20,987 nucleotides of DNA from a virus. A model generated the notes under the pieces. The model worked only from the letters and a program-made list of their open reading frames with translations. It searched no databases and had not been told where the DNA came from. The stretch covers positions 1-20,987 of IMG/VR virus record IMGVR_UViG_3300030099_006705; one strand, 5' to 3'. Both the position numbers and the translations under genes were made by a program. Shown here in pieces: positions 1 through 2,993 of the stretch. Every line of letters begins with the position of its first letter. Position 1 is the first letter of the stretch.

Positions 1-434
1 TTGCACCTGACGATGGTGAGACATCCATCCCTGTGAAGATTGATCTGGAAGATATTAAAGTCATTGAAAATGAGGATCACAATAAACAGATCCAACTTGA
101 TGATAATCTGATGATGGAGATGAAGTATCCTTCACTCGACCAGTTTATCAAGAACAACTTTGATTTTGAAGATACCACTGTTGATAAATCATTTGAATTG
201 ATTGCAACTTGTGTAGATAAGATCTACAATGAGGAAGAGGTGTGGTCCACTGATGATGTATCCAAGAAAGAAGTAATTGAATTCTTGGAACAGATGAGTT
301 CAATTCAGTTTAAACAGATTGAAAAATTCTTTGAGACAATGCCAAGACTTTCACACAAGGTTGAGGTGTATAATCCGGTCACAGATGTGAAGAGTGAGGT
401 TGTATTAGAAGGACTTTCAAGTTTTTTCGGATAG
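1..434 (+). CDS. 26: Baseplate hub subunit gp26-like, C-terminal part (5' end cut by window)
   Basis: The frame is open from the first full codon at base 3, so the gene begins upstream of the window. A GTG at 33 is probably internal. The visible 143 or so residues are acidic and alpha/beta, and resemble the C-terminal half of the T4 gp26 family (T4_baseplate family), which in T4 is about 208 aa and takes part in baseplate hub assembly. Recognisable segments are MKYPSLDQFIKNNFDF, a helix around EVIEFLEQMSSIQFKQIEKF, and a C-terminal stretch ending LSSFFG. The next ORF lies in the -1 frame and a slippery heptamer overlaps the last codons. By analogy with lambda G/GT, this gene may also act as a tail assembly chaperone for the following tape-measure candidate. 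The assignment to gp26 is by resemblance, not search. Confidence 0.8.
   Translation, partial: APDDGETSIPVKIDLEDIKVIENEDHNKQIQLDDNLMMEMKYPSLDQFIKNNFDFEDTTVDKSFELIATCVDKIYNEEEVWSTDDVSKKEVIEFLEQMSSIQFKQIEKFFETMPRLSHKVEVYNPVTDVKSEVVLEGLSSFFG
407..434 (+). other. Probable programmed -1 ribosomal frameshift site at the end of gene 26
   Basis: The heptamer T TTT TTC at 422-428 is in the gene 26 reading frame and fits the X XXY YYZ slippery rule exactly. The gene 26 stop (TAG, 432-434) follows one codon later. A -1 slip would continue CGG ATA GGC CTA GTG CAT ATG into the 57-codon ORF with no stop between. An AGAAGGA stretch at 407-413, 8 nt before the heptamer, has no start codon at usable distance. 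It could act as the upstream Shine-Dalgarno-like stimulator known from E. coli dnaX. A weak stem (450-455 with 465-470) lies about 21 nt downstream, farther than usual for a stimulatory hairpin. Confidence 0.62.
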
Positions 435-439
435 GCCTA

Positions 440-613
440 GTGCATATGGATCTGGAGAATTACTTCAGATTAAATTTTGCCCTCATGCAGTACCATAAAT
501 ATTCTTTGACAGAGATTGAAAACATGATGCCTTGGGAACGAGATGTCTATGTTGCTTTACTTCAGGAACATTTAGAGGATGAAGAGCAAAAGATGAAGGC
601 ACGGAATGGCTGA
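440..613 (+). CDS. 51: Baseplate hub assembly protein, gp51-like (57 aa)
   Basis: A short ORF fills the gap between gene 26 and the 795-aa gene. It starts at GTG 440 or ATG 446 and ends TGA 611-613, overlapping the next start by 8 nt. The protein (MDLENYFRLNFALMQYHKYS, then a Met-Met-Pro-Trp-Glu-Arg motif and an acidic helix) resembles the short gp51/hub-assembly ORF annotated at this place in T4-like cyanophages. It is far shorter than T4 gp51 (249 aa). A weak GGATAGG precedes ATG 446 by about 10 nt, so independent initiation is possible. The frame is -1 to gene 26 and open back through its slippery site, so it may be made mainly as a gp26-gp51 fusion. The small size and position before the tape measure match the T part of lambda GT-like chaperones. 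Confidence 0.7.
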   Translation: MHMDLENYFRLNFALMQYHKYSLTEIENMMPWERDVYVALLQEHLEDEEQKMKARNG

Positions 614-2993
614 AAACCAGAACAACAATTTGAATATTGAAGAGCTCAGGAAGGAATATGAAGAGTTCAAGATGCTTGGTGTCGATGAAAAGACACTTAA
701 GAAGATTGAAGATGCAATAAATCAACTAGAGAAGAGAGAGGAAGAAAAAAAGAAGAAGGAAAAGGAAGCAAAAAAGAAAGCTGCTGATGTTGCTAAAAAA
801 TTAAAAGAGGATAAGAAGAACGAGGAGAAACAGAAAAAGAAAGTTGCTGATAATGTAAAGAAGTTCATAAAAGATCAAGAGAAACAAGAGGAAGAAAATT
901 TAGAAGAGATTGATCAAGAGATCCTTGACATCCTTGGACTGGATAAGTTTGATATTGAAATGGATCCAGAGGAGTATAGAACTCTTTTGCTAGAGAAAAT
1001 TCAGGCTAACAAACAAAAAGGACAAGATAGTTCTAATGCGAAGTTAGCTAATGAAAGAAAGAGAGTTAGAGGTTCAGGTAAAAAATTCACAGCGAAAAAG
1101 AAGAAGACAGTCAAACCATCCAATTTTGTAGGTAAAGACACAACAAAGAAAGAAGAACCACAGAAGATCCAAACAGATAAATTACTTCCCTCGGCCGGAC
1201 AGACTGGTGGTTCGATGCAGGGAGAGGATATTGATGCTCGTATTGAAGAATTAAAGGTAGAGATTGAAGAGAATACTCAACAGAAACTCCTTCCTCTGTC
1301 CCAATCACTTGATAGTATTGCTCAAACTCTTGAGGGTATACTTAATACTAATCAAAAGAAACTTGAGATTGAACAACAGGCTGCTCGTGATGCTGCGAAG
1401 AAAGAAGAGACCGAAGGGTTTAAAGAGAAGGAAGCAGAACTTGAGGATGTAGATATTGATAAGAAGATTGAGGAGGGACTGGAGAAGAAATTAAATCCCA
1501 CCACATCTATTTTTGATATGATACTTGGGTTCTTTAAGAACGTCTTGTTGGGTGGTGCAATCACAGGTCTGATTGATATATTCCAAAATCCTGCGAAGTT
1601 TCTTGGTGGTTTGACAAACTTCTTGAATGATTTTATTAATTTTGCAAATGGTATCATACAACAGGTATCACAATTTATATTCTCACCTTTCAATGCTGCG
1701 ATAAGTGGTATCAATTTCGCATTAAACGAACTTGAATTTGCAATGAAGCAGATTGGTAAAATAATTCCACTCCCAAATATTAAGTTCCCTGATATTCCTT
1801 TACTTCAAATACCTAACTTACCAACCATACCTCCAAATGCTTTAGCTAACCTTTTAAACATTCAACAACAAGCTGGTGGTGGTGAGGTCATGCCTGATGG
1901 TATGTCATTCCTTGAGGGTGGTGCCATTGATAACCTGAGTGGTATGAGGATCAAGGGTATGGGTAAGGACACTCAACTCATTGCTGCTCAACCTGGTGAG
2001 GTGATGATGAGTAAGAAGGCAGTTGAGATGTTTGGTGCCGACACTCTCCTCGGTATGAATGAGGCAGCCGGTGGTAACAATAAACCCAAGTATGGTAAGA
2101 TTCCTGGGTTCCAAGATGGTGGTCAGGTAGGAAAGGTTATCATCGGTGCAGGACATGCTCAGGACCCGTCAAGAATGGGTAGCATGTTAGGAATTGATGG
2201 TCGTCCTGTTCAAGGAACACAGGACTATGGAACAGGTGTCAGTGAATCAGCAGCCACAAAACATGTTGTCGATACTCTGAGGAAATTGGTTGCTGAACGT
2301 GGTTTGTCAGATAAGATAGGGTTCAGAGACATCCTATCTTACGAGGGTCTGACAGCCATCCCTAGAGAGGTTGAGAGTGTAAGAGGACAACAATATGTTG
2401 ACTTACATTTTGATGCGAGAGGGTATGGTAAAGCTGGTGTCATCCCAGCCAGAAATGTATCCTCAATTGATAGAAGTTTGATGCAACAGTTCGGTCAATA
2501 CTATACTGACGATAAGTCTAGTGAGTATGCTGTCACCAAAGCAGGTGGAACTCTACTTGAGTTGGCACGGATTGATGACCCAGCTATGCGTGCTCTCCTT
2601 ATGGAGGCAAAGAAAAATGAGATAGGTCCTGCATCCATGCAGATGGCAGAGAAGATTTTGAGAGGTATCTTACCTGGTATTCAGGGTGGTGGTTCTGTTG
2701 ATGCGGATATTGGACGGGACTTTACAATGGGAGCAGGTGCAATAGATGCTTTTGATTCAACCGGAACACAGAAAGCAAGAGTTGGTCCGACAAATATTAC
2801 CATGAATAATATAAGTCCCCCAGTCATGAGTGGAGGAGGTGGTGCAACACAAGTGGTCCCAGTTCCTCAGTCAACAGGACAAGTAAACAGTGCCGCCTCG
2901 GCTGCCCAAGGTAAAATTCCTACCTTTAATGCTGAAGATGCCGGTAACTTTGATCTTATCGTCGTCAAGTCAATCTATAATATAGTAGGATAA
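606..2993 (+). CDS. Tape-measure-like tail protein with embedded N-acetylmuramoyl-L-alanine amidase-like domain (795 aa)
   Basis: A GAAGG site 6 nt before ATG 606 supports the start. Residues 1-150 and about 210-300 are Lys/Glu-rich coiled coil. Residues about 296-390 form a long hydrophobic, amphipathic stretch. Residues about 422-505 are Gly-rich with the segment AAQPGEVMMSKKAVEMFGAD, a motif I associate with phage tape-measure C-termini. Residues about 510-690 resemble amidase_3: GAGHA (H517), GVSES (E547), VDLHFDA (H601) and LLELARIDDP (E652) match the Zn-binding His/Glu/His and the catalytic Glu, in the right order. The tail is Gly/Ser/Pro-rich. Its place right after gene 26/51 supports a tape-measure role (gp29 equivalent), with the amidase acting on peptidoglycan during DNA entry. 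The neighbouring 920-aa protein is the alternative tape measure. Confidence 0.65.
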   Translation: MAENQNNNLNIEELRKEYEEFKMLGVDEKTLKKIEDAINQLEKREEEKKKKEKEAKKKAADVAKKLKEDKKNEEKQKKKVADNVKKFIKDQEKQEEENLEEIDQEILDILGLDKFDIEMDPEEYRTLLLEKIQANKQKGQDSSNAKLANERKRVRGSGKKFTAKKKKTVKPSNFVGKDTTKKEEPQKIQTDKLLPSAGQTGGSMQGEDIDARIEELKVEIEENTQQKLLPLSQSLDSIAQTLEGILNTNQKKLEIEQQAARDAAKKEETEGFKEKEAELEDVDIDKKIEEGLEKKLNPTTSIFDMILGFFKNVLLGGAITGLIDIFQNPAKFLGGLTNFLNDFINFANGIIQQVSQFIFSPFNAAISGINFALNELEFAMKQIGKIIPLPNIKFPDIPLLQIPNLPTIPPNALANLLNIQQQAGGGEVMPDGMSFLEGGAIDNLSGMRIKGMGKDTQLIAAQPGEVMMSKKAVEMFGADTLLGMNEAAGGNNKPKYGKIPGFQDGGQVGKVIIGAGHAQDPSRMGSMLGIDGRPVQGTQDYGTGVSESAATKHVVDTLRKLVAERGLSDKIGFRDILSYEGLTAIPREVESVRGQQYVDLHFDARGYGKAGVIPARNVSSIDRSLMQQFGQYYTDDKSSEYAVTKAGGTLLELARIDDPAMRALLMEAKKNEIGPASMQMAEKILRGILPGIQGGGSVDADIGRDFTMGAGAIDAFDSTGTQKARVGPTNITMNNISPPVMSGGGGATQVVPVPQSTGQVNSAASAAQGKIPTFNAEDAGNFDLIVVKSIYNIVG

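Follow-up and report, generated by a model that had tools for sequence, protein, structure and literature searches.

In phage lambda, the tail assembly chaperone gpG is extended to gpGT by a −1 frameshift at the heptamer G GGA AAG. Xu, Hendrix and Duda reportedly found in 2004 that the frameshift is conserved in the tail assembly chaperones of long-tailed phages. An excerpt of a 2016 review describes G-T frameshifting as widely conserved in these phages ‘except T4’ (PMC5009743). In T4, gp26 and gp51 are listed in another review as hub assembly chaperones, with gp51 absent from the final particle, and genetic studies are said there to support gp26 as part of the hub (PMC3004832). The absence of gp51 from the particle fits a chaperone reading, but gp26 as a hub part does not. 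For the cyanophages, Sullivan et al. 2010 describe a gp51 that is without the first ~200 residues and only ~20% as long as other gp51 proteins are; in phage Aeh1, the same work found gp51 to be missing (PMC3037559).

Here, we analysed a virus record of 20,987 bases (the window), whose best DNA matches in a phage collection are Synechococcus phages, e.g. S-B05 and S-H68. A preliminary description had proposed that a programmed −1 frameshift leads from gp26 into a gp51-like ORF. This proposal is strongly supported by comparative evidence, namely the conservation of the slip site, its spacing, the missing start codons and the selection acting in the −1 frame.

Reading frames in the window

The features of the locus are collected in Table 1. 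The 5′ end of gp26 is cut off by the contig edge, while the full-length protein of 238 residues is present in the near-identical locus L005. Read from the window sequence, the zero frame of gp26 ends with ...CTT TCA AGT TTT TTC GGA TAG. The −1 frame entered at the slip site reads FFRIGLVHMDLENYF... and is free of stops until 611-613, thereby including a 57-codon ORF with a GTG start (440-613). The preliminary description had all of these coordinates right: the in-frame T TTT TTC, the stop one codon on and the −1 frame opening into the 57-codon ORF. AGAAGGA was likewise confirmed 8 nt before the heptamer. When re-read from the window letters, the junction peptide of the predicted gp26-gp51 fusion, for example SSFFRIGLVHMDLENYF, also proved correct.

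Profile matches to PF12322, phrog_150 and phrog_634 in the window place the locus in the gp26/gp51 protein family. The extension matches phrog_634, which is labelled ‘baseplate hub assembly catalyst’, and also the C-terminal end of phrog_150 (E 1.4e-6). This double match was the first sign that both parts are present in one protein in some family members.

Table 1. Features of the gp26-gp51 locus and the following ORFs in the window.
Feature	Position	Strand	Basis or remark
gp26 ORF, predicted short tail assembly chaperone	3..434	+	PF12322, 128.7 bits (cut-off 24.5); phrog_150, E 1.9e-38
Internal Shine-Dalgarno-like AGAAGGA	407..413	+	8 nt 5′ of the heptamer; sequence and anti-SD pairing in relatives
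Slippery heptamer T TTT TTC, phase X XXY YYZ, −1 slip to TTT TTT	422..428	+	sequence; relatives
−1 frame extension (gp51 domain), predicted long chaperone, FFRIGLVHMDLENYF...KARNG, stop 611-613	422..613	+	phrog_634, E 1.6e-29
Bridge, slip site to first ATG, −1 frame RIGLVH	428..445	+	−1 frame pN/pS 0.30 (window clade)
gp26 zero-frame stop TAG	432..434	+	one codon past the heptamer; sequence
Possible own starts of the 57-aa ORF, GTG 440 and ATG 446 (not favoured)	440..448	+	sequence
Predicted RNA stem	450-457 pairing 463-470	+	21 nt beyond the slip site; stimulators usually lie closer
Next ORF, tape-measure candidate	606..2993	+	weak phrog_37649 tape measure match, E 0.0029
Second tape-measure/hub candidate, 920 aa	2997..5759	+	Peptidase_M23 and Hydrolase_2 match; phrog_167 tape measure, E 7.2e-13

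The preliminary description also took the next ORF for the tape measure gene. This assignment is plausible, but the profile match is weak and the following ORF scores better. The latter also has tape-measure-like stretches, and Hydrolase_2 denotes a cell wall hydrolase. In the records of phiM12 and HTVC008M, a tape-measure-like gene is found two genes past gp51.

Conservation of the slip site

Relatives were fetched from IMG/VR by similarity to gp26 at the protein level, and the heptamer was not used as a criterion. The best 80 matches were taken with the gp26 of the window and the best 80 with that of ACG-2014j, while Pelagibacter HTVC008M, Sinorhizobium phiM12 and T4 gp51 yielded 11, 78 and 10 matches, respectively. 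The gp26 of Vibrio K361 gave no matches when used as a query against the IMG/VR viral contigs. Twelve loci were added from named phage records. In total, 268 loci were readable, with the window counted twice (as itself and as L083), and 11 of them are T4-type. The heptamer was scored in 255 loci, leaving out five in which gp26 runs off the contig, L096 with its interrupted frame and the window copy L083. The 11 T4-type loci also stand outside this set; in 10 of them the long form is a single open frame, and the one in L191 is interrupted. In the latter (L191:2501-3247, T4-type gene 51), the frame is broken after codon 120, either by mutation or by sequencing error.

Among the matches listed, an in-frame TTTTTTY (TTTTTTC or TTTTTTT) lies within 13 codons of the gp26 stop in 253 of the 255 loci, the exceptions being Vibrio K361 and Pseudomonas Cygsa01. 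The gp51 domain was found in the −1 frame in all 257 non-T4-type loci, a count that includes the window twice and relies on a profile for which 17 of these loci were used. The preliminary description had named the conservation of heptamer and −1 phase as a check of the frameshift, and both hold to this extent, but the canonical heptamer is absent from six phages considered below. The spacing between the heptamer and the gp51 core is constant, since, counted in −1 codons from the slip site, the aromatic pair of the core begins at the 14th in 253/253 loci, while the zero-frame stop follows 0, 1, 2, 3 or 8 codons after the heptamer. The fixed element is the slip site and not the stop.

When 252 of the 253 heptamer loci (one contig-clipped locus was left out) were clustered by single linkage, they fell into 48 groups at 80% identity and into 17 at 50%; the 48 lineages are therefore heptamer holders by construction. 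In these lineages, the T preceding TTT is provided by seven different codons (AGT, AAT, TCT, GAT, GCT, CAT and ACT). TTC serves as the second Phe codon in 41 of the 48, whereas it accounts for 122 of the 353 Phe codons in the rest of the gene (TTT 231, TTC 122). No in-frame TTTTTTY occurs in the 6215 codons of ten other ORFs of the window and only two occur in 13,755 interior codons of the gp26 relatives; ~0.0013 would be expected by chance per 9-codon gene end. The placement of the heptamer is not due to chance.

All seven named cyanophage records examined contain the heptamer, as do nine of 13 further named phages, namely PhiW-14, Melnitz, BUCT608, P19, Aeh1, 65, S13, nt-1 and VmeM-32, the last six of which belong to Straboviridae, T4's own family, according to their records. 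Of 15 phages searched with the gp51 profile, 14 have the domain in the −1 frame. In BUCT608 the heptamer is present, yet its extension gave no match to the gp51 profile.

The six phages lacking the canonical heptamer are K361, K452, Cygsa01, VAP7, LIMEstone1 and A8-29, and a TAATG stop-start overlap is present in all of them except A8-29. They group together in the protein tree (support 92/73) and adjoin PhiW-14 (99/97 with PhiW-14), which fits a single loss of the heptamer. In Aeromonas phage phiA8-29 (L277:1486-2441), the canonical heptamer and an ATG overlapping the stop are both missing, and the gp51 domain is in the −1 frame.

Start codons and coding selection across the junction

Between the slip site and the gp51 core, 140 of 253 loci have no ATG, and 77 of 253 (19 of the 48 lineage representatives) have no ATG, GTG or TTG, although rarer starts such as CTG or ATT may occur there. 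As no usual start precedes the core in so many loci, frameshifting appears to be needed in many phages. We further analysed the bridge, i.e., the six codons ahead of the usual ATG. In the window clade its pN/pS is 0.30 in the −1 frame, compared with 1.05 and 5.83 in the other frames. The corresponding values are 0.08 vs 1.94 in the ACG-2014j clade, and 0.50 vs 1.24 and 2.40 in the phiM12 set. Judging from these ratios, the bridge evolves as a protein in the −1 frame. As in the lambda G/GT-type chaperones, the extension ORF occupies the shifted frame, is not interrupted by a stop at the junction and is subject to coding selection.

A different reading would treat gp26 and gp51 as separate proteins, with the 57-residue ORF starting at GTG 440 or ATG 446 by its own or by coupled initiation, and with the −1 phase as an accident of gene packing. 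Such possible starts do exist in the window, an ATG is present ahead of the core in 113 of 253 loci, the TAATG overlap in five of the six heptamer-less phages speaks for initiation at the junction, and many phage records annotate gp51 as a gene of its own. However, the heptamer persists where the start is missing, as in the 77 loci with none of the three usual codons, and the bridge is under −1 frame protein selection already ahead of the usual ATG. In the T4-type phages, moreover, the long form is one protein. Overall, we regard separate synthesis as very improbable. Slippage of the RNA polymerase, rather than of the ribosome, on the run of six T is hardly credible at all: the T run kept in 253/255 loci would be needed by either mechanism, but six T are short for polymerase slippage, the second Phe codon is TTC in 41/48 lineages vs a background of 35% although a longer T run would help, and the upstream anti-SD pairing and the downstream structure fit ribosomal stimulators.

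Elements flanking the slip site

For a ribosomal frameshift, the sequences on both sides of the heptamer were compared with recoded or shuffled controls. In 36 of 48 lineages, the 20 nt upstream pair more strongly with the anti-SD of the 16S rRNA than their synonymous recodings do on average (mean −6.39 vs −5.43 kcal/mol), which is a moderate effect. When 60-nt folds of the 48 lineages were compared with dinucleotide shuffles, the mean z was −2.06 at +6, but only −0.16 to −0.71 from +20 onward and at −40 or further upstream. The downstream RNA is more stable than its synonymous recodings in 40 of 48 lineages, with z < −1.64 in 26, and this effect is lost by codon 12. The L003 segment, which is identical to the window here, is also more stable than its synonymous recodings (p 0.01).

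A single conserved RNA structure was considered and rejected: RNAalifold gave no consensus on the 48 lineages or on the window clade, and the position of the signal depends on the clade. In the window clade, a five-pair stem covaries, with 16 cells changed on both sides; none of 500 shuffles reached this value, and slid versions of the stem gave 0 to 3. The number of pairs with double changes and the number of pair types are ordinary for the same stem (149 and 245 of 500 shuffles as high, respectively). Its pair 19-30 occurs as GC 24, AU 15, GU 9 and other 4. This stem is broken in the window itself, where the strongest stem is the one listed in Table 1. The ACG-2014j clade has a stem with 97% pairing and no covariation. 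Since relatedness inflates shuffle tests of covariation, we grade a downstream RNA structure as probable in many relatives, from their sequences, and as unproven in the window.

At the position corresponding to 439-452 of the window, many of the clade loci L003-L082 have a stem of the form GATCC-ATAT-GGATC or GGTCC-ATAT-GGACC, with a possible gp51 ATG at the loop edge. The clade stem, which is broken in the window, could thus also hide this possible start.

Relationship to T4 gp26 and gp51

T4 gp51 matches phrog_150 over nearly its full length and phrog_634 as well, while T4 gp26 matches only the part of phrog_150 that precedes the extension. Furthermore, a profile of the −1-fused proteins matches T4 gp26, where the match ends at the FF of the slip site, and ten T4-type gp51 proteins, and the T4-type gp51 alignments shown by the search run across the junction without a gap. 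The short form therefore appears to have its counterpart in T4 gp26, and the long form in T4 gp51. The ‘gp51-like ORF’ of the preliminary description was named too broadly, as its 57 residues are equivalent to the C-terminal domain of T4 gp51 only; the whole gp26-gp51 fusion is the counterpart of T4 gp51, and gp26 that of T4 gp26.

The number of PF12322 copies per record follows the same division, with two copies in 6/6 T4-type records and one in 15/15 others. A single copy was also found in five more Straboviridae, and again in P19, so that one copy is present in 20/20 non-T4-type records. In the window, which is a genome fragment, one copy was found rather than the two genes of the T4-type split arrangement, with the extension in the −1 frame. 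An unrooted tree of 37 proteins places the T4-type gp26 group next to the T4-type gp51 group as its sister, at moderate support (86/75), as expected from one duplication. A remnant of the slippery sequence was sought in T4 gene 26 and not found, the FF being encoded there by TTC TTT.

In Aeromonas phage Aeh1 (L281:1513-2455), the sequence T TTT TTC GAC TGA is present and the gp51 domain was found in the −1 frame (E 4.1e-6), unannotated in the record. For the cyanophages, the frameshift would supply the ~200 N-terminal residues that are absent from their gp51. We lean, with some reserve, towards the following history. For the chaperones of the T4 superfamily, with part of the Straboviridae included, frameshifting would be ancestral, and T4 genes 26 and 51 would be the outcome of one duplication and a split. 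The −1 extension of gp26 would account both for the ‘missing’ gp51 of Aeh1 and for the short gp51 of the cyanophages. A single loss of the heptamer would have occurred in one clade around the Ackermannviridae, with a third way to the long form, if it has any.

Structural comparison with tail assembly chaperones

The AlphaFold2 (AF2) model of the full-length gp26 (L005) has a pLDDT of 86.6. Residues 1-96 of this model match 3fgx (Z 7.8) and the HK97 tail assembly chaperone 2ob9 (Z 7.8, 84 aligned, rmsd 4.2), followed by YqbN 3klu (Z 7.2), 5ir0 (4.8) and 1p32 (3.9); we take 3fgx and 3klu to be chaperone-like. Foldseek ranked 2ob9 third with a non-significant E of 0.59. The model thus suggests a modest resemblance between the N-terminal domain of gp26 and the HK97 tail assembly chaperone, given that a Z under 8 can reflect a common arrangement.

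No chaperone appeared in the structure-match list for the model of a T4-type gp51, although this protein may have the fold. Sequence searches found no solved structure for T4 gp51 and just two short zinc-finger matches for T4 gp26. NCBIfam returned nothing above cut-off for gp26, the −1 extension or T4-type gp51, and the tail-chaperone families of Pfam gave sub-threshold matches only (Phage_TAC_3, E 0.018 for one protein; Phage_TAC_7, 2/52 members, best E 0.13). In the record of Dickeya phage LIMEstone1 (L276:1501-2307), gp26 is given as a confirmed structural protein, which conflicts with a chaperone role, in which gp26 would not stay in the virion.

Discussion

Our findings comprise the conservation of the sequence, coding selection in the −1 frame, resemblance to a chaperone fold and two-form homology to T4 gp26/gp51. 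Combined, they point to a chaperone pair of the lambda G/GT type, and we hold with high confidence that this locus encodes a two-form tail assembly chaperone, produced from one start via a −1 frameshift at T TTT TTC. The likeness to lambda G/GT suggested in the preliminary description is borne out by the short ORF, the heptamer, the −1 extension and the HK97-like N-terminal domain. The occurrence of the shift, its rate and the assembly function are inferred.

Most ribosomes would terminate at 432-434 and release the short gp26. A minority, held at 422-428 by the SD-like element and, in many relatives, by downstream RNA structure, would slip back by one base and read on to 610, yielding the long form that bears the gp51 domain. 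If the pair acts like lambda G and GT, the tape measure protein would be coated by many copies of the short chaperone and a few of the long one, which would recruit the tail tube subunits and then depart.

If this is true, many cyanophage proteins annotated as ‘gp51, baseplate hub assembly catalyst’ would be the tail of a frameshifted chaperone and not proteins of their own. It would also explain why the cyanophage gp51 is short and why gp51 seems to be absent from Aeh1. The two separate genes of T4 would then look derived, while many of its relatives meet the same need by frameshifting.

The core of this finding is very probably already in print. According to an excerpt of PRFect, which cites Vladimirov et al. 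2022, some T4-like phages carry a short gene and a fused long gene (PMC10885494). Vladimirov et al. 2022 is reported to have identified the chaperone genes of T4-like phages, and the poly-T −1 signals are credited to it in a later paper. The unification of the T4 hub factors with the lambda-type scheme, put forward in the preliminary description, appears to have been published there. Among the literature matches listed, none states a gp26/gp51 frameshift for cyanophages by name; Vladimirov et al. 2022 itself lies outside this comparison.

Among described systems, phage Adele (Vandenendeviridae/Andersonviridae) has a conserved poly-T −1 frameshift where the short chaperone gene ends, and its authors liken this signal to those of poly-T type in the corresponding genes of T4-like phages (PMC12846349). 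Adele differs from the present locus in belonging to another phage group and in its motif, given there as GTTTTT (PMC12846349). In comparison with lambda gpG/gpGT, the locus shares the short ORF, the slippery heptamer near its end, the −1 extension joined into one longer product and the position in a tail cluster, but the heptamer is T TTT TTC and the proteins belong to the T4 superfamily (PF12322). In comparison with T4, gp26 of T4 is homologous to the short form up to the FF of the slip site, and the T4-type gp51 is homologous to the fused long form. The T4-type phages use two genes for the short and the long form, whereas the other phages tested use one.
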